Shown: positions 5,616 to 42,476 of the stretch, piece by piece
How positions within the stretch are numbered: the stretch's first letter is position 1
Layout of the letters: each line of letters opens with the position of its first letter
Origin: a virus
Length of the DNA stretch: 64,000 bases
Direction: 5' to 3' (one strand)
Virus record (IMG/VR): IMGVR_UViG_3300032334_001259
Span: 62,001 to 126,000 of that record
Made by a program: the position numbers and the translations under genes
The notes under the pieces: generated by a model
What the model was told of the DNA's origin: nothing
What the model saw: the letters and a program-made list of their open reading frames with translations, nothing else
The model's database searches: none

Positions 5616-5634
5616 CTGTATCTCCTATTAAAAG

Positions 5635-5642
5635 TATTTATA
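5635..5642 (-). promoter_or_regulatory. Late promoter for gp19
   Basis: TATAAATA is an exact T4 late consensus on the minus strand. It lies 19 nt before the gp19 ATG with AGGAG in between. An AT-only inverted repeat (AAAGTATT at 5631-5638, AATACTTT at 5651-5658) partly overlaps it. Confidence 0.75.
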
Positions 5643-5676
5643 ACAATTAGAATACTTTTTAAGGGGGGTATAAAAC

Positions 5677-5730: not shown

Positions 5731-8700
5731 TTATACACCCAAAGTTAAACTTGGAGTAATATTACTTAATCCACCTTGGTTTGCATTTGTGCCAGCAATT
5801 GCACCAGTGTTCAAGATACGAACAGGGATATAAATGAACTCTACAGCCTTTGTTGGTTCAATTGCGATATCAATATGCAATTCATTTTGATCAATAGTAG
5901 ATGGTGTATTGTTTGTAGTATCACAAACTACAAGATAATCATACACACCACGTTGAGTTTTAACATCGTTTAGCAATGCTGATACAGCGTTTGTAGCAGT
6001 ATTACGTGTTACAGTGTCGTTTGGCTCAAATACCAATGGTTTAGCAATACGTTCAAGGTTGTAACGTAGATAGTTGATTAGACGTGCAACGTTGATACGG
6101 TCAAGAGCAGTAGCAGTTGCCTGACGAGTATGGTTACCATAGTTAAGAATACCTTCTGTTGGGAACACTGCAACTGGATTTACGTTATTGCTATATAGTA
6201 AATCACGTAGACCTTGGTTAGTTCCAATACTATAGAACTTACCAGTTACACGGTCAACATAACCAATCTTGATTACATTGTCAATTTTACCACGCAATGA
6301 ACCTGCTGGTGCAAACCATGGAGCACTTGCTTGATCGCTCTTAATAATCATACGTAGGATTGCATGTGTAATAGGAACAACAATCTGACCATTGCCATCA
6401 AGTGCATTTGTATAACCTGCACCTGGATAGAACACAGCAGTATAACTATCACTCGTAGCAAGACCATCTTCACCAGTGCTTGCAACACCACTTGTGTTAG
6501 TAACATAGTTGCTTACACTTGTAGTATCAGCAGTAAGACCCATTGGTGTGTCAGCAATGATAAATCCAGTGTTACGACGATCATTATTAAGTGAAATTAG
6601 ATTTGTCGTCAATTCTGGATATCCTGGACATACAAGAAGATTAAAGTTAGTTTGATCTTCACGTATTGTTGTATTATTATCAACTGCTGTCTTAAGTGCA
6701 TTTACAACAACATTGCGAACTGCCTTACGACCCATGTAAGGAACACCAGCAGTATTGCTACCACTTACACTTTGCCAAGTAGCAGCAACAGCAGGAATAG
6801 TTCCTAATGGATAGTTTGCACTTGTAAACTTGTTAGCCTTGTATTGTTTTACATTATAAGTGCTACGACGAGTATTGAATAGCAACATACCACGTGGATA
6901 TAGTTGTGGATTTGGTGCATCTAAATCAAGATAATTGCTTGTCAATAGACTTACAATTGTTGGCTTTGCATCAAGAGCAGGATCTACTGTGCCGGAAGTA
7001 TCCCAACGTGCATCAGCAAACAAGATACCATTTTCAGTTGTATTATCAGTGTTATCAATTTGAACCCACTGTGCGGTGCCGCTTACACTCTGCCAACGAT
7101 AAATCTTTGGATAGTTTTCAAGATCACTTGTATCTACCCATAGGTCACCATAAACAAGACTTGAATTGTCAGTTTGTTTTGTAGGTTGACTTGCACTAAT
7201 AATTGGACCAAGTGGATCTGTATTTGCAAGATTATATCCACGTGCATCACTACTTACGTTTTGATAACCTCTCCAATCAGTGCCATTACTAATCATAATG
7301 TCAACTTCAAGTGGAGTTGAAGCATACCAATAAGTGCCGTCATCAGGTGCTACAACTGGTTGTGTAGCTTGTTGGTAAAGATTACTTGCAGGATACCAAT
7401 TACTACCAATAAGATAACCATCACTTTCATCATCAAATACGTTATCAAGACTTGTTGTAATACCAGCAGCAGTAATTGGAGTTCCACTTACGTTGTGAAA
7501 TTCAATATCACCACCATTTGTATGACTAATTGAAATGTAATTAGTTGCACTTAATGATGCAGTAAGATATGGAACATTAGCCGCAAGCACATCACTTACA
7601 AAACTTGCCGCACTTGTGCTACTCAATGTAATTGTATATGCGCTACTCCAGCTGCTACTACCAGGACTTGTTGTTCTTATAGTAAAGCTATTACCAGCAC
7701 TAAATGTTGGATTTGCAACACTACCAGTAACAACAGTAGCAGTTCCACCACCATTCCATTGTAATAGTTTATATGTGCCTGTGTTTGTACCAAGAACATC
7801 ATATTCAACAAATAGCGTATCTGCTGCAATACCTAAACCACCAAGTGTTGGATCAAGATTATAAAGTGCAGTTTTACGATCTGCATAAACTGGTGCAGGT
7901 ATAGTGTCAAACGCCATAGTAGCACTGTTATAACGATAAATCTTAAAGTTTGCACCACCGTTTACAGCGGTAGTTTTCATCCAAATACTACCTGTTGGAT
8001 GTGGTTGCGCATCAGTTGATTTCCATGCAGGAACACTGTAGTGTGCACCATAACTAAGTGCAGGACTCCAGTATGTACCTGGTGTTAAGCCAAGAGCATT
8101 AAGTGGGTTACCACTGCTATTACTAATAGTAATTTTACCGTCAGCTGCAGCATTAGCACCACCACTCTTTGCACTTGCGTTTGCAAACAAATTAAAGTAA
8201 CCATTAACAACTTGTGCATTAATACCAGACAAACCAGCACTATTAATAGTTGCGGCAAGATTTGACGCACTTGTGTTTGCTATTGTAAATGTATTACCAT
8301 TTATTACAAGTGCTGTTGCAAGAGTTAACGCACTTGCCTGTGCATTACCAATAAGTGTTGGTGTCTTGATTGCCCATGCATTACTACCAATTAGGTTCCA
8401 AGAATTATCATAAGCCTTGCGATATATTGGATTCTTAACATCAGTTGCATTGATTGCATAACTTCCAACTGTGCCAATATTACTATAAGGAACACCACCA
8501 GTTAACTGTGTTGAATCTGTAATTACAGTTGGGCTTGTTTGTGTGAATGTTTCACTTGTATAATCCCATTCAAATACGCCATAACTTGTAGTTGCGGTAT
8601 CCATCCATTGTGTTCCACCATCTGGATTTGCATATGGACGTGAACTACTGCCAGTTAACTGTGCAAGGTCAACATTTGCACGAAGAACATAAACTTGATT

Positions 8701-9012
8701 AGTAACACCAAGTGTGCTGTGTGCAGCCATAAGACCGTATTCTGCGGTCTCGCTACCAAATAAACGATTTCCACTTGCATCTGTTGGGAAAATCGGTAGT
8801 CCGTAGTTTGTAAGAAGGTCTTTTTGACTTGTAAGAAGTTGTAATGTATTAACTGTTGATTCAGTTGTATAACTTGCAATACCGCCAGCAGTGCTTGTTT
8901 TGTCTGTAGCAGTAGCAAGAAGAACGAAAGGTACTGTGCCAGGACCAGTAGGAGCGTAATTGCTTTGATCAATTACTGTTACTGATACGCCAGGAGATGT
9001 TAAAGTTGCCAT
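5731..9012 (-). CDS. 18: Tail sheath protein gp18, enlarged
   Basis: The N-terminus (MATLTSPGVSVTVIDQSNYA) and the C-terminal domain (RINVARLINYLRYNLERIAK, then IDIAIEPTKAVEFIYIPVRI) are typical of contractile tail sheath proteins. These polymerise around the tube and shorten to drive injection. At 1,093 residues it is much longer than T4 gp18 (659). The extra ~400 residues form a beta-rich, Ser/Thr/Ala/Asn-rich insertion in the middle, likely exposed on the sheath surface. Its ribosome binding site lies in a hairpin that also contains the late promoter (9015-9056). Confidence 0.9.
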   Translation of the reverse strand: MATLTSPGVSVTVIDQSNYAPTGPGTVPFVLLATATDKTSTAGGIASYTTESTVNTLQLLTSQKDLLTNYGLPIFPTDASGNRLFGSETAEYGLMAAHSTLGVTNQVYVLRANVDLAQLTGSSSRPYANPDGGTQWMDTATTSYGVFEWDYTSETFTQTSPTVITDSTQLTGGVPYSNIGTVGSYAINATDVKNPIYRKAYDNSWNLIGSNAWAIKTPTLIGNAQASALTLATALVINGNTFTIANTSASNLAATINSAGLSGINAQVVNGYFNLFANASAKSGGANAAADGKITISNSSGNPLNALGLTPGTYWSPALSYGAHYSVPAWKSTDAQPHPTGSIWMKTTAVNGGANFKIYRYNSATMAFDTIPAPVYADRKTALYNLDPTLGGLGIAADTLFVEYDVLGTNTGTYKLLQWNGGGTATVVTGSVANPTFSAGNSFTIRTTSPGSSSWSSAYTITLSSTSAASFVSDVLAANVPYLTASLSATNYISISHTNGGDIEFHNVSGTPITAAGITTSLDNVFDDESDGYLIGSNWYPASNLYQQATQPVVAPDDGTYWYASTPLEVDIMISNGTDWRGYQNVSSDARGYNLANTDPLGPIISASQPTKQTDNSSLVYGDLWVDTSDLENYPKIYRWQSVSGTAQWVQIDNTDNTTENGILFADARWDTSGTVDPALDAKPTIVSLLTSNYLDLDAPNPQLYPRGMLLFNTRRSTYNVKQYKANKFTSANYPLGTIPAVAATWQSVSGSNTAGVPYMGRKAVRNVVVNALKTAVDNNTTIREDQTNFNLLVCPGYPELTTNLISLNNDRRNTGFIIADTPMGLTADTTSVSNYVTNTSGVASTGEDGLATSDSYTAVFYPGAGYTNALDGNGQIVVPITHAILRMIIKSDQASAPWFAPAGSLRGKIDNVIKIGYVDRVTGKFYSIGTNQGLRDLLYSNNVNPVAVFPTEGILNYGNHTRQATATALDRINVARLINYLRYNLERIAKPLVFEPNDTVTRNTATNAVSALLNDVKTQRGVYDYLVVCDTTNNTPSTIDQNELHIDIAIEPTKAVEFIYIPVRILNTGAIAGTNANQGGLSNITPSLTLGV

Positions 9013-9014
9013 TT

Positions 9015-9056
9015 GGTCTATCCTTATAGGTGTTGTTAATATTTAGCGGATAGACC
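9015..9056 (-). promoter_or_regulatory. Late promoter inside an RBS-sequestering hairpin (gp18)
   Basis: On the minus strand a perfect 9-bp inverted repeat, GGTCTATCC (9056-9048) and GGATAGACC (9023-9015), flanks a late box GCTAAATA (9047-9040). The 3' arm contains part of the AAGGA site and ends 2 nt before the gp18 ATG. A late start near 9034 would omit the 5' arm and free the ribosome site. Confidence 0.7.
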
Positions 9057-9092
9057 TAAAAGAACCTCCATTTCAGGAGTTATATACGGACA

Positions 9093-9698
9093 TTATAGCA
9101 AACTCTTGACTTTTTCTTCCAATTCAGCAATTGTGCCGTCATTATTAATAAGTTGGTCAAGATTTTCTTTGACCCATGACCATTCACTTGGATGAATATC
9201 ATTTGGTTGTTCGCCATATTGTACAAGTTTAATCATCCAATCAGGGTCTTCACCACGACGAACACCCCATACTTCACCGCCAAGTTTGCGGATCATATTT
9301 ATTTCATTTGGGAAACGAGTATCTGGAATAACAACATTATTATATTGTGCATTACTATTTTTAGCACCTGAAAGTTTTTTTTCAAGACTTGCAATCCAAA
9401 TGTCTGTATGAAAACCTTGGCGGCAAACTTCTGTTCCCCAATATTGTAATGCCCAACGTGGTGTAATATTTTCTATACCAAGTCGTGCTGACCACCATTC
9501 ATCTACGGTTTCACGCCAATCACGGCTTTCTTTTGTGTCACCTTCAAGTAAATGCCGAGGCCATCCAAATACAGTTGCTACAACGTCTTTAAGACTGTCA
9601 GCAAAACTTACTTTTTCAAAATTGTGATTGCCTACAAGAATATCCGCAACGGTTCCTTTGCCACCACCGATAAGACCGCATACCCCAATTATCTTCAT
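9093..9698 (-). CDS. 1: Deoxynucleoside monophosphate kinase (gp1-like)
   Basis: This 201-residue protein has a P-loop at residues 8-16 (GLIGGGKGT), followed by the dNMP kinase pattern VSFADSLKDVV, WRE, ALQYWGTEVCRQGFHTDIW and VIPDTRFPNEIN. T4 gp1 phosphorylates dNMPs, including the modified nucleotide, to supply phage replication. Here the gene sits among late tail genes, between the gp13-like neck gene and gp18, an order I recall from other marine T4-like phages. The length is close to T4 gp1 (241) but somewhat shorter. Confidence 0.85.
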   Translation of the reverse strand: MKIIGVCGLIGGGKGTVADILVGNHNFEKVSFADSLKDVVATVFGWPRHLLEGDTKESRDWRETVDEWWSARLGIENITPRWALQYWGTEVCRQGFHTDIWIASLEKKLSGAKNSNAQYNNVVIPDTRFPNEINMIRKLGGEVWGVRRGEDPDWMIKLVQYGEQPNDIHPSEWSWVKENLDQLINNDGTIAELEEKVKSLL

Positions 9699-9736
9699 GT
9701 TAATAATTTAACAAAAAATAATATTATTGTCAAATA

Positions 9737-10489
9737 TTATCCGATAACAAACCACATTGGTGTTTCACCAGTCATACTATTGGTGATTTCAAGTTCAAGT
9801 GCATCTAATTTGGTTTGACCACGTGTGAGAAGGTCGGTTCCATTTAAACTACTGCCACCCTGTGGACCAGGCAGTGTGCTAAACTTACTACGTGCTTCAC
9901 CCAAAATCATCATACATTTTGCTAAAGTATATTCACGAAGCCATGGTTTGCTATAGATATCAGTTAATAATGTAATATCTGGTTTATAATTTTCTGTCCA
10001 AAGCAAAATGGTTTCTTTGTCACTACGTGGACGGCGCATGATTGTAAGTTCTTTTGTAACCGTATTAAACTTATAATTTAAAAAACCACCAAACATCTTT
10101 GCTGCTTCTTTTAAGAAAGCACTATAAAGATAGTATGTTGCCAAACCACCAACACGACCACTTTGTATCATATAAAAGTTTACGAAACCTGCTTCAAATG
10201 GTTCATATTGGCTACTTGTGCCACTGTTTGCACCAATATTACGCTTAAAACAATTACGAACACTTATAACTTCATTTGGTAATGTATAAGTGTTTGTATC
10301 TTGTATGAGTTCTAAAAATGAATAACTTTCTTCAACACTGTTAGCACTGCGTTGGCGATAGCGAATAATAGCCTGAGTTAACGCAGTTTCATAATGAATT
10401 GGATCAAGTTCAATGTCAATGATACCATCACCAAGGGTATAACGGACATAATCAAATACTTCTGTTTTTAATTCTTGCAGTGTTGCCAT
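9737..10489 (-). CDS. 13: Neck protein (gp13-like)
   Basis: The 250-residue protein has an N-terminal YTLGDGIIDIELDPIHYETA segment, RYRQRSANSVEESYSFLEL, TYTLPNEVISVRNCFKR and a C-terminal WLREYTLAKCMMILGEARSK region. A GPQGGSSLNG loop follows. This pattern matches neck proteins (gp13 type) of T4-like marine phages as I remember them; neck proteins close the head portal after packaging and join the tail. It is preceded by a box GCTAAATA 5 nt from the ATG with no Shine-Dalgarno, so it is predicted leaderless. Confidence 0.65.
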   Translation of the reverse strand: MATLQELKTEVFDYVRYTLGDGIIDIELDPIHYETALTQAIIRYRQRSANSVEESYSFLELIQDTNTYTLPNEVISVRNCFKRNIGANSGTSSQYEPFEAGFVNFYMIQSGRVGGLATYYLYSAFLKEAAKMFGGFLNYKFNTVTKELTIMRRPRSDKETILLWTENYKPDITLLTDIYSKPWLREYTLAKCMMILGEARSKFSTLPGPQGGSSLNGTDLLTRGQTKLDALELEITNSMTGETPMWFVIG

Positions 10490-34674: not shown

Positions 34675-34748
34675 ATCAGTGTGGTGTAATGGTAACACAG
34701 CGGTCTCCAAAACCGTTATTCAGGGTTCGAGTCCTTGCACTGATGCCA
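34675..34748 (+). tRNA. tRNA-Trp (CCA)
   Basis: A complete cloverleaf: acceptor ATCAGTG/CACTGAT, D stem GTGT/ACAC, anticodon loop CTCCAAA, T loop TTCGAGT, and an encoded CCA end. Confidence 0.95.
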
Positions 34749-34768
34749 AAAATAACATTATTATGACA

Positions 34769-34797
34769 TTGACACGCAATTTAAAAGGATATATAGT
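34769..34797 (+). promoter_or_regulatory. Sigma70-like promoter with no leader
   Basis: TTGACA and TATAGT are spaced 17 nt apart. The expected start point is the ATG at 34804, and no Shine-Dalgarno sequence is present. Confidence 0.45.
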
Positions 34798-34803
34798 TAT
34801 AGG

Positions 34804-35034
34804 ATGGCATCAAGCAAACCGCCCATCATTCCAGATAATACTTGCCCATATATTGATATGGCACAAGACCTTATTAGCCAAATGTCTGCCCAAGAAGATG
34901 CAGAGTGGCGTAAAAAACAAGCAGATTTAGCAGAAAGTTTATTGGAATATATTCGTGCAGCAAATTTAGAGTTGCGTGAAGGCGGAAAGTATTGGTATAA
35001 TCGTGCAAAGAAGGTAGGAAAGGGAACTGTATGA
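34804..35034 (+). CDS. Small conserved phage protein
   Basis: The 76-residue protein reads PPIIPDNTCPYIDMAQDLIS, then a helical ESLLEYIRAANLELREGGKY. I recall similar short proteins in other large phages but no known function. It may be translated from a leaderless message (promoter 34769-34797). It overlaps the next gene by 4 bp. Confidence 0.6.
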   Translation: MASSKPPIIPDNTCPYIDMAQDLISQMSAQEDAEWRKKQADLAESLLEYIRAANLELREGGKYWYNRAKKVGKGTV

Positions 35035-35678
35035 AAGGCAAGATAGCGATTTTTGTTGATCACCCAAGAGTTAGCATACATGGTGCTAATGGGTTAATGA
35101 ACGCACTTGCTCAAGATTATCAGTTTAAGATTTTTACAAGACATGATCTTCCATATGATGATTGGTGGGATGATGTTGATATCTGTGCCGTGCCAGGTGG
35201 TATTGGTGATTATATGACATTTAATCGTGTTATGAAACATCATATTCCTAAAATTAAAACATTTCTTGACCGTGGTGGTCGTTATCTTGGTATTTGTATG
35301 GGTGCATATTGGGCTGGCAGTATGTTTCTTGATATACTCAAAGGACGTGATTGTGTTCAATATCTTAGACGCCCTAAAACTGATACACGCCGACCACATG
35401 CAAAAGATTTAGAAGTTACTTGGTTAGGTAATAAAGAAAAGATATTTTGGTATGATGGATGTAGCATTATTGGAAAAGGTAAGTTTGATGTTGTTGCCAC
35501 TTACCCCAATGGTGATGCTATGGCAGGTTACCAAGATCGTATTGGTCTTATCGGCAGTCATCCAGAAGCAGAAAAATTCTGGTATGACGAATATACTTGG
35601 TTGAAGCCAAAGTATGTTGGAAAAGAACACAATCATGAACTATTACATGATTTTGTTGATGAACTTATGAAACGCTAA
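35031..35678 (+). CDS. Class I glutamine-amidotransferase-like (BPL_N) protein
   Basis: The 215-residue protein has a flavodoxin-like core with CAVPGGIGDY, the nucleophile elbow GRYLGICMGAYWAGS (Cys89), and GSHPEAEKFWYDEY with the expected His and Glu. This matches the N-terminal domain of eukaryotic-type biotin-protein ligase (BPL_N) and related amidotransferase-like proteins. The substrate is unknown. It is coupled to a small three-helix membrane protein downstream, suggesting a joint function. Confidence 0.7.
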   Translation: MKGKIAIFVDHPRVSIHGANGLMNALAQDYQFKIFTRHDLPYDDWWDDVDICAVPGGIGDYMTFNRVMKHHIPKIKTFLDRGGRYLGICMGAYWAGSMFLDILKGRDCVQYLRRPKTDTRRPHAKDLEVTWLGNKEKIFWYDGCSIIGKGKFDVVATYPNGDAMAGYQDRIGLIGSHPEAEKFWYDEYTWLKPKYVGKEHNHELLHDFVDELMKR

Positions 35679-35926
35679 TGATAGAATATATTATTGTATT
35701 TTTATCGATGTTTGTCGTGGATGTATTCTATGCAATATATCTAAAAAGCATTGAAAATAACAAACCTATATTTGCCTCTTTTATGGCTACCATTGTGTTT
35801 TTTGTTGCAAGTATCGCAACAATAGGTTATATTGATAATCACTGGTTACTTGTTCCAGCTTGTTTAGGTGCATTTGCTGGCACATGGGTTGGTGTTATGT
35901 ATAATATTAAAAAGAAGAAAAACTAA
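35678..35926 (+). CDS. Small three-helix membrane protein
   Basis: This 82-residue protein has three hydrophobic segments (residues ~3-22, ~32-51, ~56-75) and a basic cytoplasmic tail (KKKKN). Its ATG overlaps the amidotransferase-like stop (TAATG). Holin or membrane-partner roles are possible; there is no direct evidence. tRNA-Cys begins 3 bp after its stop. Confidence 0.6.
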   Translation: MIEYIIVFLSMFVVDVFYAIYLKSIENNKPIFASFMATIVFFVASIATIGYIDNHWLLVPACLGAFAGTWVGVMYNIKKKKN

Positions 35927-35928
35927 TT

Positions 35929-36006
35929 GGGGAAGTGAGTGCGGAATGGTTACGCCAAGGTCTGCAAAACCTGTTCATGTGGGTTCGAGTCCCATCTTCC
36001 CCTCCA
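35929..36006 (+). tRNA. tRNA-Cys (GCA)
   Basis: Acceptor GGGGAAG/CTTCCCC, anticodon loop CTGCAAA, T loop TTCGAGT, encoded CCA. Confidence 0.95.
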
Positions 36007-36169
36007 TTACTGGAGATAAAGAGATAGATTTGTTAATACACAAAACTCGTATGTGCTTGTGTAACAAATACTACAATCAAGTTTATAAGTACATTTCTAT
36101 CTTAGAAACTAAAAATGTTTTCTTTAATGTAGAAAATAATAAAGAATACCAAGAATGGTTACATAATAC

Positions 36170-36244
36170 GGCTCCATCTTATAATGGTTATTATCCTTGA
36201 CTGTCTATCAGGGGATAGGGGTTCGATTCTCCTTGGAGTCGCCA
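36170..36244 (+). tRNA. tRNA-Asp (GTC)
   Basis: Acceptor GGCTCCA/TGGAGTC, anticodon stem CTTGA/TCAGG with loop CTGTCTA, T stem AGGGG/CTCCT, encoded CCA. The D arm is weak. The CCA end overlaps a late box for the next gene. Confidence 0.85.
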
Positions 36245-36250
36245 TAAATA
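36243..36250 (+). promoter_or_regulatory. Late promoter box, leaderless class
   Basis: CATAAATA ends 5 nt before the ATG at 36256 and overlaps the CCA end of tRNA-Asp. Confidence 0.6.
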
Positions 36251-36255
36251 ACTAT

Positions 36256-36696
36256 ATGGCACTAGATCCTAAATCCGCACAGAAACTTGGTGAAGCATAT
36301 GGCAAAGGCGTCACCGACGCCGTATTTGGTATTGTTGATGATGTTCGCAATGCGAAAAATATCAAAGCATCAAATAATGCAAAGATTGCCGCAAAAAATA
36401 AAATTACAGAAATCAACAATCAAATAATTCGCAATAATAACGCACTGCGTGAACAAGCAATGCGTGAAATTGCGGCAGAAGCAGAAGCAAGTGCATTAGC
36501 AAAAATGACACCTGCACAACGTCAAGCATATAAAGCAACAAAAGAAGCTAATGCCGCAGCAGCACAACGTGCAGCTAAAGAAGCTAAAAGAAAAAGTGAA
36601 GAGTTTTGGCAGTATTTTTGGGCAATTGTGATTGTTCTAGTCTGCATACCAATTTTAGGTGGTGCTGGCTATCTACTACTTAAATTAGCACACTGA
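36256..36696 (+). CDS. Coiled-coil protein with C-terminal membrane anchor
   Basis: The 146-residue product (from MALDPKSAQKLG; longer starts would run through tRNA-Asp) is an Ala/Lys/Glu-rich helical rod from about residue 40 to 115. It ends in one membrane segment (AIVIVLVCIPILGGAGYLLL). This tail-anchored coiled coil could be a virion or lysis accessory; the late box supports late expression. No family recognised. Confidence 0.65.
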   Translation: MALDPKSAQKLGEAYGKGVTDAVFGIVDDVRNAKNIKASNNAKIAAKNKITEINNQIIRNNNALREQAMREIAAEAEASALAKMTPAQRQAYKATKEANAAAAQRAAKEAKRKSEEFWQYFWAIVIVLVCIPILGGAGYLLLKLAH

Positions 36697-36753
36697 TTTC
36701 AATTATATCAGTATCTCAATTACATCTATAATTTTCCATGTTTGGAGATACTG

Positions 36754-36990
36754 TTGGATATTCTACCACAAACCTACGATATGGCGTGGGGTCCGTGCTA
36801 TTGGCGGATGCATTATTTTTATCATAATGTAAAAGAATACCATTGGACACAATGGGATGCCAGTGCTGATTATAGCAAACAAAGCATTATGAATGCATGG
36901 GTTGAAGCAAAAAACAAAGCTGATCCAACAATACGAATACGTATAACGTGTCAAAATAACAAATATATTATTTTAGATACACGTCCTTAA
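36754..36990 (+). CDS. Small hypothetical protein, TTG start
   Basis: I favour the TTG at 36754 because GGAG lies 6 nt upstream (78 residues); an earlier TTG at 36742 is also open. The protein is Trp/Tyr-rich (AWGPCYWRMHYFYHNVKEYH) and ends in a strand. It resembles the RFG small-protein group in size and aromatic content but lacks that ending. It ends 5 bp before tRNA-Glu. Confidence 0.45.
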   Translation: MDILPQTYDMAWGPCYWRMHYFYHNVKEYHWTQWDASADYSKQSIMNAWVEAKNKADPTIRIRITCQNNKYIILDTRP

Positions 36991-36995
36991 TTTAA

Positions 36996-37072
36996 CCGCC
37001 CATAGATAACGCTGGCTATATCACTGCCCTTTCAAGGCAGAGTAACGAGTTCGACACTCGTTGGGCGGACCA
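36996..37072 (+). tRNA. tRNA-Glu (TTC)
   Basis: Acceptor CCGCCCA/TGGGCGG, anticodon loop CTTTCAA, T stem ACGAG/CTCGT, encoded CCA. Confidence 0.95.
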
Positions 37073-37078
37073 ATTAAT

Positions 37079-37107
37079 TTGCATATTCTAATAATTTTTG
37101 TTATACT
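37079..37107 (+). promoter_or_regulatory. Sigma70-like promoter
   Basis: TTGCAT and TATACT are spaced 17 nt apart, upstream of the nuclease-like gene at 37126, which has an AAGGTG site. Confidence 0.45.
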
Positions 37108-37125
37108 TTCATTATAAGGTGTAAC

Positions 37126-37647
37126 ATGAATACAGAAGAATATGCAGCATTTGAAAAAAGTGCAAGACCAATACTAGAAAGCTATCGTGGTAATATTGAT
37201 TATTATGTTGGCACAATGTATGAAGGTTTTTTAAGTCATCCAAATACAGTTCGTGGTAGTATTGGTGAAGCAATTGTTAGTGCAGATATGTCAAGCCGTG
37301 GACATGTTGTAGAAGATCGTATTAATGCTGGTCATGACAGAATTATTGATGGTATTAAAACAGAAATAAAACACGCAATTCAAGGCAAATTTGGTCCAGA
37401 TAGTCATATTATAAATCATATTAGTGCTGATAAAGATTGGGATAGATTAATATTTTATGGTGTAAACCGTCCATTGGAAGATACACGAAGAGTATGGTTT
37501 ACAAAAGAAGATTTTATTGCAAATATTAACAGTGGTATTTTTCGTCGTCAACAAGGTGGACAAGATGGTGGAAATGATGATTATATGGTTAGCAACACAA
37601 GTAAATTATTGTGTCAACCATGGGTTCATGATATTCAAACTTTTTAA
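37126..37647 (+). CDS. PD-(D/E)XK nuclease-like protein
   Basis: The 173-residue protein contains GSIGEAIVSADMSSRGHVVE followed by HDRIIDGIKTEIKHA. This gives Glu48, Asp75, Glu80 and Lys82 in the spacing of the E...D...ExK nuclease site. The C-terminal half is alpha/beta (DWDRLIFYGVN). It sits alone between tRNA-Glu and tRNA-Ile, and its stop abuts the tRNA, a location typical of homing or restriction-like nucleases in phage tRNA clusters. DNA cleavage is inferred. Confidence 0.6.
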   Translation: MNTEEYAAFEKSARPILESYRGNIDYYVGTMYEGFLSHPNTVRGSIGEAIVSADMSSRGHVVEDRINAGHDRIIDGIKTEIKHAIQGKFGPDSHIINHISADKDWDRLIFYGVNRPLEDTRRVWFTKEDFIANINSGIFRRQQGGQDGGNDDYMVSNTSKLLCQPWVHDIQTF

Positions 37648-37723
37648 TGGCGTGTAGCTCAGTGGTAGTAGCACAGTCCTGATAAGACTGGGGTCATTGG
37701 TTCAAATCCAATCATGCCAACCA
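37648..37723 (+). tRNA. tRNA-Ile (GAT)
   Basis: Acceptor TGGCGTG/CATGCCA, anticodon stem CAGTC/GACTG with loop CTGATAA, T stem ATTGG/CCAAT, encoded CCA. It begins directly after the nuclease gene stop. Confidence 0.9.
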
Positions 37724-37729
37724 AATAAA

Positions 37730-37759
37730 AAATGAGAGGAAATTGCTTTCCTCTCATTT
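37730..37759. terminator. Bidirectional terminator
   Basis: A perfect 13-bp stem AAATGAGAGGAAA/TTTCCTCTCATTT with a 4-nt loop. The minus strand continues into TTTTTTATTT, and a T-rich stretch follows on the plus strand. It ends tRNA-Ile and the membrane gene at 37785. Confidence 0.9.
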
Positions 37760-37784
37760 ATTGTAGAATAAACTTTTGGGAAAA

Positions 37785-38018
37785 TTACTTCTTCTGCCAA
37801 ATGTTATAGAGAACCCAAATTGCAATCAAGCCTACAAGACCTTCTGATCCAAGACCTTTTACAATTGATGTAACGTTAGCAATAACGTCTACATTTGGAA
37901 GGAATGGGATTGCTACACCCTTGAAAATTACACTAGTAACAATCATAAGTGCTAGTACACTTAATAGAGTGTCAGCAAGTGCTGAAACCCATGATTTAAC
38001 TGTCTTTAAAATATCCAT
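37785..38018 (-). CDS. Small two-helix membrane protein, holin-like
   Basis: The 77-residue protein has two hydrophobic segments (residues ~17-36 and ~58-73) separated by a polar loop with a VDVIANVTSIVKGLGSEGLV pattern. Similar small membrane proteins are conserved in T4-like marine phages as I recall. Size and topology fit a class II holin, but no lysozyme is adjacent. It has an AGGAGA site, a late box and a terminator, so it is a single-gene late unit. Confidence 0.6.
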   Translation of the reverse strand: MDILKTVKSWVSALADTLLSVLALMIVTSVIFKGVAIPFLPNVDVIANVTSIVKGLGSEGLVGLIAIWVLYNIWQKK

Positions 38019-38060
38019 TTTATACTTCTCCTAATACCTTTTGTCATAAAAAGGTAATAA

Positions 38061-38068
38061 TATTTATT
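38061..38068 (-). promoter_or_regulatory. Late promoter box
   Basis: AATAAATA lies 42 nt before the ATG at 38018 and is followed by a TACCTTTT/AAAAGGTA hairpin in the leader. Confidence 0.5.
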
Positions 38069-38069
38069 C

Positions 38070-38146
38070 GCTGTTGGGGCGGTTGTGGAAATCGCACCAC
38101 TCTCATAAGGTGGGAAAAGCTGCTTCGAGTGCAGCCAACAGCACCA
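38070..38146 (+). tRNA. tRNA-Met or Ile2 (CAT), elongator type
   Basis: Acceptor GCTGTTG/CAACAGC, anticodon loop CTCATAA, T stem GCTGC/GCAGC, encoded CCA. The paired first base and the anticodon stem argue against an initiator. A lysidine-modified Ile tRNA cannot be excluded. Confidence 0.9.
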
Positions 38147-38162
38147 TAAGCACAAAGCACCA

Positions 38163-38170
38163 ATTAAATA
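38163..38170 (+). promoter_or_regulatory. Late promoter box, leaderless class
   Basis: ATTAAATA ends 4 nt before the ATG at 38175. No ribosome binding site is visible. Confidence 0.45.
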
Positions 38171-38174
38171 TATT

Positions 38175-38633
38175 ATGAAAAGAATTATTCTAATTTGTTT
38201 GTTATTGTCAGGATGCAACACATTACAAAAAACTAGTGTAGATGTTGTTGGAACTGGTTTATCACATCATTTAATTGAACGGACTAATCCTCCTTATAAT
38301 GAAACCAATAGTGGTGTTGGATTAAGACTTAATTTTAATAATGATACTGCAATACAAAGTGGATTTTACAATAACAGCTATAACAACCAAAGCAATTATG
38401 CAATATTAGATTATTCACCATACAAATTATTAAGACAAAATGATTGTGGAAAAATAGATGTAGGTGGTTTTATAGGAGCAGCAACTGGTTATAAAACATA
38501 TCCAGTTCCAGTTGGTGGTATACAAGGTGCAATTCATTGTGGTGATTTTTATGTGCGTTCAAGGGTAACACCAGCACCAATTGCTGGTGCAGTTTTATCC
38601 GTTGAATTTGGCTATACAATTTTTAAATTTTAG
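38175..38633 (+). CDS. Outer-membrane-type lipoprotein
   Basis: The 152-residue protein has a signal peptide with lipobox LLSGC (Cys14). A beta-rich mature region with amphipathic strands follows, ending GAVLSVEFGYTIFKF with a terminal Phe as in outer-membrane barrels. It may be a small lipidated barrel in the host outer membrane, for example a lipid-modifying or superinfection-exclusion factor; the sequence shows no catalytic motif I can name. Its stop overlaps the converging small gene by 4 bp. Confidence 0.65.
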   Translation: MKRIILICLLLSGCNTLQKTSVDVVGTGLSHHLIERTNPPYNETNSGVGLRLNFNNDTAIQSGFYNNSYNNQSNYAILDYSPYKLLRQNDCGKIDVGGFIGAATGYKTYPVPVGGIQGAIHCGDFYVRSRVTPAPIAGAVLSVEFGYTIFKF

Positions 38634-38791
38634 GGACGACCTTGACCACGATAGGTTTTAGTATTGCGACGAACATGTTTATTTTTAGGACGACTTGCCT
38701 TGGCATGACCTATACTGGTACGTTTTTTAACACTTGCTTTTTTAAATGTAACTTTTTGTGCAGCATTACTTCCACCTTTTGCTTTAGCCAT
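38630..38791 (-). CDS. Small basic protein conserved in T4-like marine phages
   Basis: This 53-residue ORF (MAKAKGGSNAAQKVTFKKAS at its start, then TSIGHAKASRPKNKHVRR and a terminal YRGQGRP) is extremely Lys/Arg-rich. I recall short proteins with the TSIG....RPKNKH....YRGQGR pattern in cyanophages. Binding to nucleic acid or packaged DNA is plausible. An AGGAG site and a TGTAAATA late box precede it. Confidence 0.75.
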   Translation of the reverse strand: MAKAKGGSNAAQKVTFKKASVKKRTSIGHAKASRPKNKHVRRNTKTYRGQGRP

Positions 38792-38810
38792 GGTTGATCT
38801 CCTATTAAAA

Positions 38811-38818
38811 TATTTACA
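38811..38818 (-). promoter_or_regulatory. Late promoter box
   Basis: TGTAAATA on the minus strand lies 19 nt upstream of the ATG at 38791 with AGGAG in between. Confidence 0.5.
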
Positions 38819-38849
38819 TTAAAATTACAAAATGATACATACAAATATT

Positions 38850-38923
38850 GCGGCTATGATGTAGAGGTAACCTGTCTCGTTGCCAACGAGAATTCACCAG
38901 TTCGATTCTGGTTAGCCGCTCCA
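38850..38923 (+). tRNA. tRNA-Gly (GCC)
   Basis: Acceptor GCGGCTA/TAGCCGC, anticodon stem TCTCG/CGAGA with loop TTGCCAA, T loop TTCGATT, encoded CCA. Confidence 0.95.
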
Positions 38924-38931
38924 ATTAAATA
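38924..38931 (+). promoter_or_regulatory. Late promoter box, leaderless class
   Basis: ATTAAATA starts right after the CCA of tRNA-Gly and ends 5 nt before the ATG at 38937. No ribosome binding site. Confidence 0.5.
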
Positions 38932-38936
38932 CCTAC

Positions 38937-39548
38937 ATGGAAGATATAGAAGCAATTTCTTGGAAAAATACTCACAAAGAAGATTTATGGGTATTTGATA
39001 AACTAATTATTGCCAAGAAAATGGGTTATACATGTGGTCCTGTAGGAGTTGATGTGCCTAAACCTGGTTTTTACATTGTGCGCCCGTGTGTCAATATACC
39101 AGGCATGGGACGTGGTGCTAAATTGAGACACCTTATTAAACGAACAAAACACTTACCTACTGGACATTTCTGGTGTGAATCATTCAGTGGTAGACATATA
39201 AGCGTTGATTATAAAAATGGTGAACAAGTGTTAGCAGTAGAAGGATTTCGTAGAGACGGTCATCTTTGGCAGTTTTGCAAATGGGAACGTGTAAATGATG
39301 ATTTGCCATTACCAGAAATATTTCACGACGTAATAAATCGTTATGAATATATCAATGTTGAATATATTGGCGGAAAAGTTATAGAAATTCATTTTCGTCA
39401 TAATCCTGATTTTGTATGGGGCAATAGTGTAGCATATCCAGTTTGGGAAAAAATAGATGTGCGACAATTATATCCAGAAGTTGACTTTGATAGTTTAACT
39501 TTTGTATCATCTCCAGATTATAAACGTTTAGGATTTTATATAGATTAA
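38937..39548 (+). CDS. Hypothetical conserved phage protein
   Basis: The 203-residue protein reads WVFDKLIIAKKMGYTCGPVG, then FYIVRPCVNIPGMGRGAKLR, GHFWCESFSGRHISVDY and LAVEGFRRDGHLWQFCKWER. The invariant-looking Arg, Cys and Gly residues suggest an enzyme, perhaps an ATP-grasp-like fold, but I cannot confirm this. It is placed between tRNA-Gly and a degenerate tRNA, with a leaderless late box. Confidence 0.6.
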   Translation: MEDIEAISWKNTHKEDLWVFDKLIIAKKMGYTCGPVGVDVPKPGFYIVRPCVNIPGMGRGAKLRHLIKRTKHLPTGHFWCESFSGRHISVDYKNGEQVLAVEGFRRDGHLWQFCKWERVNDDLPLPEIFHDVINRYEYINVEYIGGKVIEIHFRHNPDFVWGNSVAYPVWEKIDVRQLYPEVDFDSLTFVSSPDYKRLGFYID

Positions 39549-39553
39549 AATAT

Positions 39554-39628
39554 GCTGGTATGGTGTAATAGTTTGCACATAAGGTTGTGGCACTGGTAGA
39601 GTTAGTTCGAATCTAACAGACGGTGCCA
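39554..39628 (+). tRNA. Degenerate tRNA-His-like sequence (GTG)
   Basis: The D stem GTGT/GCAC, the loop TTGTGGC with anticodon GTG, the T arm GTTAG-TTCGAAT-CTAAC and the CCA end are clear. The acceptor (GCTGGTA against AGACGGT) has two mismatches and the anticodon stem two. It is either a decaying tRNA or one needing an unusual fold. Confidence 0.45.
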
Positions 39629-39635
39629 TTAAAAT

Positions 39636-39663
39636 TTGACTATTGTCAAATATATGATATATT
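39636..39663 (+). promoter_or_regulatory. Sigma70-like promoter in tRNA cluster
   Basis: TTGACT, 16 nt, TATATT, just before the tRNA-Met-like gene and the structured RNA. Confidence 0.55.
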
Positions 39664-39671
39664 TAAAATAT

Positions 39672-39744
39672 TGCGGGGTAGTGGAAAAGTGCCACGGTTG
39701 GCTCATAACCAACAAAACTGGAGCGTTACCAGCGACCGCAACCA
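39672..39744 (+). tRNA. Atypical tRNA-Met-like (CAT)
   Basis: The D stem GTGG/CCAC and anticodon stem GTTGG/CCAAC with loop CTCATAA are perfect, and the 3' end CCGCAACCA resembles initiator tRNAs. The T loop reads AGCGTTA instead of TTCRANY, and the inner two acceptor pairs are mismatched, so function is uncertain. Confidence 0.5.
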
Positions 39745-39749
39745 ATTTA

Positions 39750-39901
39750 TCTCTGTGGAGTTAGGGTAAGATTAATGCGGCACTTGGACTGCCGAGAACC
39801 TGGGGCAGCGCCAGGCACGGAGACCATCTAGAAGGCAAGATACACGTATTACTAAGTGGGTGTATCACATCGTGGGCGTGTTGGAGTGGGGCTGCACGAT
39901 G
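39750..39901 (+). ncRNA. Unclassified structured RNA between tRNAs
   Basis: There is no ORF. Stems: outer TCTCTGTG (39750-39757) with CACGGAGA (39816-39823), one G-U pair, enclosing CGGCA/TGCCG (39778-39794) and CCTGG/CCAGG (39799-39815). Two further hairpins follow, ATACAC/GTGTAT (39840-39865) and CATCGTG/CACGATG (39868-39901). The region is distinctly G/C-richer than the genome. It does not fit a tRNA or tmRNA and I recognise no family. Confidence 0.5.
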
Positions 39902-39914
39902 ATTAGCTGATTTT

Positions 39915-39998
39915 GGATCGGTTACCGTAGTGGCGAACGGCCTAGGCTTTTAACCTAGTATACAAACATCATGGGTTCGAGTCCCATCCGATCCTCCA
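39915..39998 (+). tRNA. tRNA-Lys (TTT) with long variable region
   Basis: Acceptor GGATCGG/CCGATCC, anticodon stem CTAGG/CCTAG with loop CTTTTAA, T loop TTCGAGT, encoded CCA. Twelve nucleotides separate the anticodon and T stems, where about five are usual. Confidence 0.8.
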
Positions 39999-40006
39999 AA
40001 AATATG

Positions 40007-40041
40007 GGTAGAGCATAAATATAATAAAAGGATGCTCTACC
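40007..40041 (+). promoter_or_regulatory. Late promoter inside an RBS-sequestering hairpin (HNH gene)
   Basis: A perfect 10-bp inverted repeat GGTAGAGCAT (40007-40016) / ATGCTCTACC (40032-40041) flanks a loop with the late box CATAAATA (40014-40021) and the AAAAGGA site. The 3' arm ends one base before the ATG at 40043. A late start near 40027 would lack the 5' arm. Confidence 0.7.
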
Positions 40042-40042
40042 T

Positions 40043-40471
40043 ATGCCAAGTAAAATAAAAAGTTTTTGTAAAAATTGTGGTGTCAGTTTTATACACGGAA
40101 AAAGTTCATATGGAATATATTGTAGTAATAGGTGTCAGGGGGAACTAAAATCTAAAACAATTATAGAAAATTGGTTTAATGGAACAGATAAAGGATATAA
40201 AGTAGGATTTAGAATTAAACCTGCTATAAGAAATTATCTGTTAGAAAAAACTAATTATAGTTGCTCCGAATGTGGGTGGAATAAAATAAACCCAAAAACT
40301 GGAAAATCTCCATTAGAAATTGATCACATTGACGGAGATTGTTCAAATAATAAAGAAGAAAATTTAAGAGTTCTTTGTCCTAATTGCCATTCTTTAACGC
40401 CAACATGGAAAGCATTAAACAAAGGAAATGGAAATAAAGAAAGTCATAGATATTCTGGTCTTATAAAATAA
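40043..40471 (+). CDS. HNH homing-type endonuclease
   Basis: The 142-residue protein has an N-terminal Cys4 zinc element (CKNC ... CSNRC, residues ~9-31). Its HNH core is YSCSECGWNKINPKTGKSPL, EIDHIDGDCSNN, then LRVLCPNCHSLTPTW, with the expected His-Asp-Asn residues between two CxxC pairs. Free-standing HNH enzymes cut DNA in related phages to spread themselves or neighbouring DNA. It sits within the tRNA cluster, abuts a tRNA-Arg-like copy, and is visibly AT-rich. Expression appears to be gated by a late-promoter hairpin. Confidence 0.85.
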   Translation: MPSKIKSFCKNCGVSFIHGKSSYGIYCSNRCQGELKSKTIIENWFNGTDKGYKVGFRIKPAIRNYLLEKTNYSCSECGWNKINPKTGKSPLEIDHIDGDCSNNKEENLRVLCPNCHSLTPTWKALNKGNGNKESHRYSGLIK

Positions 40472-40548
40472 GCCTACGTAGTTCAATGGATTAGAATGAC
40501 GGTCTTCGAAACCGTGGGTTACAGGTTCAAGTCCTGTTGGGTCTACCA
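40472..40548 (+). tRNA. Chimeric tRNA-Arg-like sequence (TCG)
   Basis: The first 48 nt match the intact tRNA-Arg at 41266 with one difference. The 3' half has its own T arm ACAGG-TTCAAGT-CCTGT and CCA, but its acceptor strand TGGGTCT does not pair with GCCTACG. It looks like a recombined or duplicated tRNA and is probably not functional. Confidence 0.5.
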
Positions 40549-41223
40549 ATTATTAATATCTTCTTCTATTTCATTAAATCCAACTTGATTTGATTTGGCA
40601 CCCATTTTATGGTTTGCCTTCCACCAATTTTTCCAAACATTATAAATTCTATCTTTATTAAGTGGATTTAAGTTAAAAAATTCAAGAGATTTGTTAATTT
40701 CAATTGTAAATTTATTTCCATTTAAAAACGCAGAGTGTGGAAATTTAAAATAATTTTTATTTTTTTCATCTAAAAATCTGATTAATTCTTTTTCATACTT
40801 AATTTGTGCATCAACCATGTTATCATCTGAACCACTACTTTCTACAAAGTTTCTTCTGAATAAAAGCCATTTAGTTTCTTTTTCATTAGATAAATCCCAA
40901 TCAATGTAAATTAATTTTTCAAAATTTAACCATTCATTAAATGAAAAAAATCTTGGATGAGCTGCTGTTATGTTTTTATGAAATTTACCTTCATATGCTT
41001 TTCTCCATGCAAATTTTGGAATATTAGGTGCTTCTGCTGAATATATTTCATCTAATTTATTAAAAAAATCTGGTCCAAAATACTTCTCACTACAACTTAG
41101 AATATTAGCAAGTAAATGTCCACCAGTCATAGGAAAATAAGCAATTAATAAACTATCTTTGTGTGGTATTCTTTGAACAGAAAGTAAATTTTCAATAGGA
41201 GTAAATGGCCATGTGTTTATCAT
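40543..41223 (-). CDS. Sulfotransferase-like protein
   Basis: The 226-residue protein opens with LLIAYFPMTGGHLLANILSC, an altered form of the PAPS-binding loop of sulfotransferases. It continues with WLLFRRNFVESSGSDDNMVD, where Arg and Ser fit the 3'-phosphate site. A C-terminal helical region follows. Sulfotransferases move sulfate from PAPS to sugars, proteins or lipids. The gene is AT-rich, reads against its neighbours, and lies exactly between two tRNA-Arg sequences. It has a box ATTAAATA 4 nt before the ATG. Confidence 0.55.
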   Translation of the reverse strand: MINTWPFTPIENLLSVQRIPHKDSLLIAYFPMTGGHLLANILSCSEKYFGPDFFNKLDEIYSAEAPNIPKFAWRKAYEGKFHKNITAAHPRFFSFNEWLNFEKLIYIDWDLSNEKETKWLLFRRNFVESSGSDDNMVDAQIKYEKELIRFLDEKNKNYFKFPHSAFLNGNKFTIEINKSLEFFNLNPLNKDRIYNVWKNWWKANHKMGAKSNQVGFNEIEEDINNW

Positions 41224-41227
41224 GCAA

Positions 41228-41235
41228 TATTTAAT
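41228..41235 (-). promoter_or_regulatory. Late promoter box, leaderless class
   Basis: ATTAAATA on the minus strand ends 4 nt before the ATG at 41223. Confidence 0.4.
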
Positions 41236-41265
41236 TTAAATATTTTATCTAATAAAAAAATAATT

Positions 41266-41342
41266 GCCTACGTAGTTCAATGGATAAGAATGACGGTCTT
41301 CGAAACCGTGGGTTGGGGGTTCGAATCCCTCCGTAGGCTCCA
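41266..41342 (+). tRNA. tRNA-Arg (TCG)
   Basis: Acceptor GCCTACG/CGTAGGC, anticodon stem ACGGT/ACCGT with loop CTTCGAA, T loop TTCGAAT, encoded CCA. Confidence 0.95.
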
Positions 41343-41353
41343 AAAAATAATGC

Positions 41354-41382
41354 TTGACATAATTGTAAAGTTGATATATATT
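41354..41382 (+). promoter_or_regulatory. Sigma70-like promoter before tRNA-Asn
   Basis: TTGACA and TATATT are spaced 17 nt apart; tRNA-Asn starts at 41400. Confidence 0.6.
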
Positions 41383-41399
41383 ATGAATATAATAGTTAT

Positions 41400-41475
41400 T
41401 CCCGAATAGCTCAACTGGCAGAGCACAGTGCTGTTAACACTGGGGTTACTTGTTCGAATCAAGTTTCGGGAGCCA
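41400..41475 (+). tRNA. tRNA-Asn (GTT)
   Basis: Acceptor TCCCGAA/TTCGGGA, anticodon stem CAGTG/CACTG with loop CTGTTAA, T stem ACTTG/CAAGT, encoded CCA. Confidence 0.95.
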
Positions 41476-41480
41476 CTTTT

Positions 41481-42107
41481 TTAAAACGCTAATGGATAAA
41501 AATACCAAATACCATCAGCAAGTAGGGCAAGTCCAACTAAACCTACAGCAATACTACCGCCCCATAACAGTATGTTAGCACCAAGTATAGCAGTAGTGCT
41601 TAATACAATTGCAATTTGAAATGCCGTACTTGCCAATCCAAATAGTGGATTACGTTGTTTAGCAGCATCACGTTCTGCTTCAAGTTCTCGTGCTTCTGCC
41701 ATAATTTCTTTTTTTCCATGACCTTTTGGATCACTTTCAAGTTTATCAATAACGGCTTGATAACGTGATGCACGTTCTGCTAATATCTTTTTAACATTTG
41801 CTGGTGTAGATGGGTCTTCTAGTTGTGCTTTAGTATCTTCTAAATCTACATAATATAAGTTTTGTTTAATGCTTTTTGCTTGATAAAAAGCCCATGCATT
41901 TGTTACTTCTATATTTGTTTCCATAATTCTTGTAGCATTTTTACCACCAAAAAGTGTGCATACCGATAATATCATTGCAAATACGGTAATGGTAATTGTA
42001 GAAAGTTTTCTTATCTTTGCTTCTTTATCAGCAAGTTTATCTATATCACCTTCTTTACGAGTTTTAAGATATGTGTTTACAGTGTTTTGAAATTGTTTGA
42101 TGTCCAT
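41481..42107 (-). CDS. DUF4337-like membrane protein
   Basis: From the ATG at 42107 (208 residues, MDIKQF) the protein has a membrane segment at about residues 39-55 and the NAWAFYQAKSIKQNLYYVDL motif typical of DUF4337. A coiled-coil stretch (residues ~103-155) and two C-terminal membrane segments follow. A longer in-frame start would run through tRNA sequence and is rejected. The function of the family is unknown. It lies antisense between tRNA-Asn and the next tRNA. Confidence 0.65.
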   Translation of the reverse strand: MDIKQFQNTVNTYLKTRKEGDIDKLADKEAKIRKLSTITITVFAMILSVCTLFGGKNATRIMETNIEVTNAWAFYQAKSIKQNLYYVDLEDTKAQLEDPSTPANVKKILAERASRYQAVIDKLESDPKGHGKKEIMAEARELEAERDAAKQRNPLFGLASTAFQIAIVLSTTAILGANILLWGGSIAVGLVGLALLADGIWYFYPLAF

Positions 42108-42156
42108 GGTATTTTTCTCTTGACTATATGTGATATTTAGGATATATATAATACAT

Positions 42157-42234
42157 GCCCTACTAGCCCAACTGGTTAGAGGTGCTTGCCTTAGAAGCAA
42201 GAGGTTCTCCGTTCGAATCGGAGGTGGGGCACCA
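42157..42234 (+). tRNA. tRNA with TAG anticodon (Leu?), short variable arm
   Basis: Acceptor GCCCTAC/GTGGGGC, anticodon stem CTTGC/GCAAG with loop CTTAGAA, T stem CTCCG/CGGAG, encoded CCA. The anticodon UAG reads Leu codons, yet the variable region has only five bases, unlike bacterial tRNA-Leu. The D stem has mismatches. Confidence 0.7.
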
Positions 42235-42236
42235 AT

Positions 42237-42310
42237 GCCGCCATAGTATAATGGTATTACAGTGGATTAGTAACCCTCTGACGGAAGTTCGATTCTTTCT
42301 GGCGGCACCA
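42237..42310 (+). tRNA. tRNA-Thr-like with imperfect anticodon stem
   Basis: Acceptor GCCGCCA/TGGCGGC, D arm and T arm (GGAAG/CTTTC, loop TTCGATT) and CCA are good. They resemble phage tRNA-Thr. The anticodon stem GTGGA/CCCTC has two mismatches; read as a 7-nt loop TTAGTAA the anticodon would be AGT. Confidence 0.6.
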
Positions 42311-42314
42311 TATA

Positions 42315-42398
42315 GGAAGATAGCGAGCAAGGTGCTCAAACCGTCTTGAAAACGGTGCCACCGAAAGGTTGATGGTTCGATTCCTTTATCTTCCGCCA
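42315..42398 (+). tRNA. tRNA-Ser (TGA)
   Basis: Acceptor GGAAGAT/ATCTTCC, anticodon stem ACCGT/ACGGT with loop CTTGAAA, a long class II variable arm, encoded CCA. Confidence 0.95.
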
Positions 42399-42402
42399 TA
42401 AT

Positions 42403-42476
42403 GCGGAGTTGGCATATTGGTTGTGCTCCAGCCTTCCAAGCTGGCTAAACGAGTTCGATTCTCGTACTCCGCTCCA
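42403..42476 (+). tRNA. tRNA-Gly (TCC)
   Basis: Acceptor GCGGAGT/ACTCCGC, anticodon stem CCAGC/GCTGG with loop CTTCCAA, T stem ACGAG/CTCGT, encoded CCA. Confidence 0.95.

Follow-up and report, generated by a model that had tools for sequence, protein, structure and literature searches.

Translational control by an RNA hairpin gate is known for the T4 genes e, soc, 49, I-TevI, I-TevII, I-TevIII, and segB, and for mobE of phage Aeh1 (PMC3014915; PMC2988022). The genes gated in this way are described as late genes that lie on long polycistronic RNAs (PMC2988022), and conservation of the gene e hairpin among T4 relatives has also been described (PMC3014915). The T4 late box is placed about one turn upstream of the start in the account of PMC2988020, and an ATAAATA late motif before structural genes is already known for phage CBB (PMC5259590). 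Our searches of the open-access literature returned neither a gp18 gate nor leaderless late genes for T4-like jumbo phages. Here we describe an inverted repeat in front of the tail sheath gene (gp18) of a jumbo phage, located in the window (the whole stretch of 64,000 nucleotides that was analysed) within a phage record of 338,435 bases; the repeat is very probably an RNA hairpin gate, exerting translational control of the T4 gene e/I-TevI type.

The gp18 leader and other late genes of the window

The gp18 gene (5731-9012, reverse strand, ATG at 9012) encodes a tail sheath of 1093 aa (phrog_10581, E 1.7e-191; PF17482) that shares 42-45% identity, over the covered part, with the sheaths of PA5oct, Atu_ph07, and Phosso. 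The window sequence on the minus strand 5′ of gp18 (9015-9056) runs GGTCTATCC-GCTAAATA-TTAACAACACCTATAA-GGATAGACC-AA-ATG. From the sequence and the predicted fold, the 5′ arm is GGTCTATCC (9048-9056) and the 3′ arm is GGATAGACC (9015-9023), and a T4-type late promoter box, GCTAAATA (9040-9047), lies in the loop. An earlier reading made from the sequence only had claimed a perfect 9-bp inverted repeat around the late box, with its 3′ arm over the gp18 Shine-Dalgarno region. The repeat is present, with a single copy of the exact arm and box pattern in the window and none in any of 100 dinucleotide shuffles, and the overlap is confirmed for the GGA of the Shine-Dalgarno AAGGA (9021-9025, reverse strand, located by eye), both A's of which lie just 5′ of the arm. 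The predicted late transcription start, 13 nt from the box start, falls at 9034 (reverse strand), 3′ of the 5′ arm. Among relatives, for which gp18 starts were assigned from a start motif and 60 nt or more of upstream sequence was required, a NNTAAATA box lies no more than 60 nt upstream in 64 of the 65 unique gp18 upstream sequences. The same genome encodes a gp55-type late sigma factor (G000:C1:160925-161704; E 1.2e-79 to phrog_12791, with a further match to phrog_234 at E 6.1e-23), and sigma factors of the phrog_12791 type were found in 0 of 14 control genomes.

We scored gates by the cost in energy of opening the ribosome site, comparing the long RNA with an RNA that begins 13 nt past the box start, and obtained p values against 100 dinucleotide shuffles of the upstream segment. 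Opening the gp18 ribosome site takes 14.3 kcal/mol in the long RNA vs. 3.6 in the predicted late RNA (a difference of 10.7), and the long-RNA energy was reached by 0 of 100 shuffles. In the T4 positive control, gene e (two boxes, 13.2 and 14.9), I-TevII, 49 (13.1), and segB scored 12.5-14.9, all at p ≤ 0.02; the T4 genes 4, ipII, and denV gave no gate score, and for the remaining T4 entries no box fell within range. T4 gene 53 (L259, 38386, forward strand) had a gate score of 7.3 (p 0.01).

Three further hairpins had been claimed at 47859, 40007, and 59260, and all three were found there, with stems of 11, 10, and 8 bp, respectively. The gate of the virion protein gene 47894 (47859-47892, forward strand) consists of GCTGATCTTAC, a loop with CATAAATA, and GTAGGATCAGC; its stem includes one G-U pair, it scores 13.5, and it shows covariation. 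The gate of the HNH endonuclease gene 40043 (40007-40044, forward strand; GGTAGAGCAT/ATGCTCTACC; score 14.0) lies in a tRNA cluster, the gene sitting between tRNA-Lys and tRNA-Arg; in this genome the folding extends to 14 pairs, including part of the start codon. The cluster (34675-42476, forward strand) holds 15 tRNA genes with interspersed ORFs, and the HNH ORF comes to its end at the first bases of the following tRNA-Arg. The gate of a fibre-like gene (57090-59252) lies at 59260-59287 on the reverse strand (CTCTAATA/GGGTAAATACTA/TATTAGAG; score 9.1). Its stem is unchanged in the relatives L206-L208, an unrelated stem of 14 bp is found in the more distant L212, and no stem was seen by eye in L213; because the gene follows another fibre-like gene, no early transcript would be expected there.

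These hairpins had been taken to suggest a genome-wide timing system, a claim that proved too broad. Among the 28 leadered late boxes found mechanically in 164 kb, some of them doubtful because no Shine-Dalgarno is visible, 6 are gated at p ≤ 0.02 and 9 at p ≤ 0.05, so that genome-wide gating as stated was rejected; within the window, 4 of 11 leadered boxes are gated (p ≤ 0.02), the other seven have p ≥ 0.13, and a second class of late genes looks leaderless (see below). The largest differences in the 164 kb belong to 40043 (14.0), 47894 (13.5), gp18 (10.7), and the fibre-like gene at 59252 (9.1), with which a doubtful box at 90032 ties (9.1). The gp19 (tail tube) gene has a late box, TATAAATA (about 5632-5663, reverse strand), that overlaps a perfect AAAAGTATT/AATACTTTT repeat; this repeat misses the Shine-Dalgarno of gp19, which is not gated. 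At gathering score, Rfam 15 gave 11 matches in the window, all of them tRNAs and none at the gp18 hairpin; within 8950-9150 the only Rfam match reached a score of 15.9, the gathering score being 54.

Covariation of the arms among relatives

Sheath relatives were taken from IMG/VR, the uncultured sets being samples (the best 80 of 596 and 80 of 217). Among the sampled relatives of the window clade the late box is constant and the arms change together: one subclade has the arms TCTATTCC/GGAATAGA, L012 has a relocated 5′ arm (GTGGTATATTTC with GGAATATACCAC), and L013 pairs AGGGTCTTTT with AAAAGACCCT. Counting changes pair by pair is unsuitable for the gp18 alignment, where 40 nt of upstream sequence misses the 5′ arm and subclades differ in register by one pair; we therefore used a permutation test instead, re-pairing the arms among relatives in 20000 permutations and comparing the fit with the cognate mean. 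The cognate fit was reached in 0 of 20000 permutations in each of four sets: the gp18 window clade (n = 19), the close 47894-family set (n = 32, hand-chosen), 15 cultured phages, and 10 phages taken one per lineage. The excess is small for the distant uncultured gp18 sequences (n = 45; -5.98 vs. -5.12 kcal/mol, reached in 10 of 20000) and for the distant 47894 sequences (n = 14; -6.84 vs. -5.74 kcal/mol, 297 of 20000).

The 47894 family comprised 55 unique upstream sequences, 46 of them with a usable leadered box, which were divided by hand into 32 close and 14 distant ones. Two alignments, of 9 and 11 rows (8 and 10 distinct), were built from sequences picked for a common register, a choice that favours the structure; L128, L137, L151, L155, L156, L158, L163, L164, L169, and others were left out. 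The first of these register-picked alignments has 84.4% of its cells paired and both sides changed in 6 of 12 pairs, with a covariation of 0.363 vs. 0.198 in shuffles, a value that none of the 500 shuffles reached, and no more than 0.179 on sliding; the second has 77.8% paired and both sides changed in 5 of 9 pairs, with 0.333 vs. 0.133 (again reached by none of 500) and no more than 0.178 on sliding. Neither alignment exceeded its shuffles in the count of pair types, and in the second the pairs with both sides changed showed no excess either (171 of 500). Covariation of the arms around a kept box, which the sequence-only reading had named as a check, is thus seen both in the gp18 window clade and in 47894.

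We also inspected gp18 in 15 cultured jumbo phages, calling a gate at p ≤ 0.05. Twelve are gated (Atu_ph07, Phosso, 121Q, CBB, RaK2, Vibrio 2.275.O, GAP32, XbC2, Hallingskeid, Munch, XaC1, and PA5oct), although eight of these form one clade and so represent fewer independent cases; with a slightly longer segment the count is 11 of 15, Vibrio 2.275.O dropping to p 0.13, and SCTP-2, XacN1, and CM1 are ungated with either segment. For example, the gp18 arms are ATTAAATCCTTC/GGAGGATTTAAT in 121Q and ATATAACCCC/GGGGTTATAT in Atu_ph07. Members of the 121Q/CBB group (L239-L241, L247-L251) have a conserved TATACGAATATTCG-like inner hairpin in a long late gp18 leader. The homolog of 47894, inspected in seven cultured phages, is gated at p ≤ 0.01 in two (121Q and GAP32) and not in four, and has no box in one.

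The repeat could alternatively be a DNA element at the late promoter, such as an operator or a cruciform (for example a repressor site), with RNA folding incidental. The repeat does overlap the promoter, and I-TevI is described as binding an operator located at the late promoter of its own gene (PMC2988022). A fixed protein-binding consensus, however, would forbid what the relatives show, namely arms that differ while their complementarity is kept; the distance from box to ATG varies from 34 to 66 nt among gated gp18 genes, yet the 3′ arm stays on the ribosome site (a position for which the score itself selects), and the 47894 stem contains G-U pairs. Pairing in RNA and pairing in DNA are hard to separate: a strand asymmetry of the helix, which would favour RNA pairing, appears in the 47894 family (18 of 24, p 0.009), and is absent from the gp18 window clade (7 of 18) and from the cultured phages (7 of 12). 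On balance, we consider a DNA element very unlikely.

Upstream genes, predicted read-through, and leaderless-looking late genes

Directly upstream of gp18, on the same strand, lies a gene for a deoxynucleoside monophosphate kinase (dNMK; 9093-9698, reverse strand; phrog_139, E 2.1e-44; PF21448), preceded by a sigma70-type promoter, TTGACA-17-TAAATT, found by promoter scan (9705-9733, reverse strand) and predicted to be the source of early read-through. Further upstream is a gp13-like gene (9737-10489, reverse strand; phrog_211), with its box GCTAAATA 13 nt before the ATG and predicted to be leaderless. In the window clade, the pattern TTGAC[AT]-16/17-TA, defined after inspecting the upstream sequences, is present in all 15 distinct dNMK upstreams recovered, its spacer varying between 16 and 17 nt and its -10-like hexamer lying just before the dNMK start (23 sequences were given, of which 15 distinct upstreams had a recognised start; L029 and L125 are not in the set, nor is L025, which has TTGACA but whose start the pattern did not recognise). 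The promoter ends 6 nt before the dNMK ATG, so the dNMK RNA may be nearly leaderless. The terminator scan listed no site between dNMK and gp18, and with the dNMK promoter this means that early RNA should, at least in part, reach gp18; a weak CTCC/GGAG hairpin followed by TTCTTTT, seen by eye between dNMK and the gate, could reduce such read-through. By the promoter and the empty scan, gp18 may belong to an early or middle transcription unit. At 9092-9100 (reverse strand), just upstream of the gp18 hairpin, an extended -10-like TGCTATAAT overlaps the dNMK stop codon; relatives have TATAAT, GATAAT, or AATAAT at this site, which is partly fixed by coding and may be a second early start.

Early or middle RNA from the dNMK promoter would carry both arms, fold, and hide the gp18 Shine-Dalgarno, and late gp13 RNA reading through would likewise carry both arms and be folded. 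RNA from the late promoter in the loop would start about 13 nt past the box start, lack the 5′ arm, and be accessible to ribosomes; tail sheath would hence be made only after the onset of late transcription. The sequence itself shows the hairpin, its upkeep by compensatory changes, the box within its loop, the promoter pattern of dNMK, and a gene for the late sigma factor; the RNA ends, the early read-through, the folding in cells, and the repression of translation at gp18 are what we infer. The T4 e/I-TevI logic that had been claimed for this locus is supported by arms that covary around the box, by a predicted start that removes the 5′ arm, by the dNMK promoter upstream, and by the gp55-type sigma factor in the genome.

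The position of the hairpin just 3′ of the dNMK stop codon also fits an intrinsic terminator, or an mRNA end that protects the dNMK RNA, the overlap with the ribosome site being a by-product; terminator-like hairpins were seen by eye nearby in L025, L160, and L170. The gp18 stem is followed by AAATGGCAAC with no T run, however, and the terminator scan, which was empty at 9015-9056, led us to reject a terminator, as the Rfam scores led us to reject a known Rfam family. The arms covary with the Shine-Dalgarno region, and the gate is likewise placed at 40043, a gene preceded by a tRNA; we consider this explanation even less likely than a DNA element.

A large uncultured group has a small opposite-strand gene, mostly of 114-119 codons, between dNMK and gp18, so that co-directional read-through from dNMK is not expected there. 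The small gene (44 loci) has cysteine pairs, and its own box lies 12-14 nt before the start in 34 of 43; that of L039 (2051-2395, reverse strand) had no confident Pfam match. Among the sampled loci, gp18 is gated (p ≤ 0.05) in 32 of 39 with a same-strand neighbour vs. 4 of 44 with a divergent one, or, classified by dNMK distance, in 30 of 35 vs. 6 of 40 (neighbour labels were transferred by hand, and L105, L081, and L083 had too little upstream sequence for a neighbour type). The same-strand loci ungated at this threshold are XacN1 (whose gp18 neighbour is annotated as a tail sheath stabilizer), L029, L125, Vibrio 2.275.O, L010, CM1, and SCTP-2; L066, L021, L039, and L019 are gated despite the divergent gene. 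A box kept without its arms, which the sequence-only reading had named as refuting a gate, is thus found at 40 of the 44 divergent-neighbour loci, where co-directional RNA from dNMK would not be expected. In the gp18 tree (86 rows, 201 columns) the window clade is nested inside the divergent-neighbour group and two changes of neighbour type are needed, only one of them forced by the starred branches. Such a tree would agree with a gate lost on arrival of the divergent gene and independently regained on its departure; the events are few and phylogeny confounds the counts, so that the association of gate and neighbour rests on about two changes.

Chance pairing in A+T-rich leaders, of a Shine-Dalgarno with pyrimidines before the box, would suit these 40 ungated loci and the fairly common perfect inverted repeats of at least 9 bp (29 in the window with loops of 3-40 nt vs. 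10-18 in five shuffles, the gp18 repeat thus being unusual by its position over the gp18 ribosome site and not by its length), but it was rejected by the re-pairing test and is contradicted by the compensatory changes in the 47894 stem and the different arms across several phage lineages, which leave it the least likely explanation of all.

A hairpin gate is one of two arrangements suggested by the late boxes. In 164 kb, box starts cluster at two distances from the ATG, 12-14 nt (16 of 46 boxes) and 23-36 nt (20 of 46); twelve permuted motifs gave 11 occurrences in all at 12-14 nt, about 0.9 each, after the permutations AAATAT (10) and ATAAAT (6), which overlap the box itself, were set aside. 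Among gp13 homologs, the spacing from box to gene start is exactly 13 nt in 28 of 55, and 14 of 55, some with doubtful starts, have no box. Nine ORFs of the window have a box 12-13 nt before the ATG (367, 3460, 10489, 10749, 19327, 38175, 38937, 41223, and 51493). Genes with a box at 12-14 nt look, by this spacing, like templates of leaderless late mRNAs, and this class in turn places the late start near box + 13. By that rule, and judged by eye, the predicted start falls inside the 5′ arm for gp13 in L068 and L039, for 47894 in L155, and for gp18 in L014 and L022. The gp13 leaders of L068, L039, L090, L020, and L056 have a hairpin after the late box with the Shine-Dalgarno in its loop (by eye); the predicted start cuts the 5′ arm of these hairpins, which are possible gates of another geometry.

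We tentatively suggest, as an idea that may well not hold, that two interchangeable devices tie late-gene translation to late transcription initiation in these jumbo phages: a hairpin gate opened only by the late start, or an mRNA starting at the AUG, in which case read-through RNA would have no ribosome site. Gates would be gained and lost with neighbour orientation, and some hairpins would be cut inside the 5′ arm by the predicted start.

Comparison with known systems

As far as open-access searches show, the new elements here are a sheath gene under such control, its spread over many jumbo phages, gates that seem to come and go with the orientation of the neighbour, and a second, leaderless-looking class. 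A plausible reason for targeting the sheath is that T4 gp18, when made as a recombinant protein, is reported to polymerise alone into polysheaths (PMC3004832). Premature tail sheath would be wasteful and could polymerise alone, and might thereby harm early infection. We describe a probable gate of the T4 kind at a gene for a major structural protein, one that compensatory mutations have preserved and that seems to have evolved anew with unrelated arms, and for which the rearrangements seem to provide a natural experiment: where co-directional read-through is removed, the gate goes. For the annotation of T4-like phages, this suggests reading late promoter position and RNA folding together.

The gp18 leader resembles that of T4 gene e, with a late box between or in the arms, the Shine-Dalgarno in the 3′ arm, and a late RNA without the 5′ arm; the gate scores are also alike (13.2 and 14.9 for e vs. 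10.7 for gp18). Unlike e, which encodes a lysis enzyme, the gene here encodes a jumbo-phage tail sheath and stands behind dNMK. The product of soc is, like gp18, a virion protein, but it is a dispensable decoration protein, whereas gp18 is an essential major structural protein. In T4 soc and 49, as here, an RNA helix is described as sequestering the Shine-Dalgarno and/or the start codon (PMC3014915). The homing endonuclease genes I-TevI, I-TevII, I-TevIII, segB, and Aeh1 mobE share the same layout of promoter and hairpin (PMC2988022), and segB, in the T4 tRNA region, has a likeness in the HNH gene 40043 of the window, in its tRNA cluster. The window's HNH gene differs from the T4 and Aeh1 homing endonuclease genes in having arms of its own and no known homing activity, and the main case here is a structural gene.
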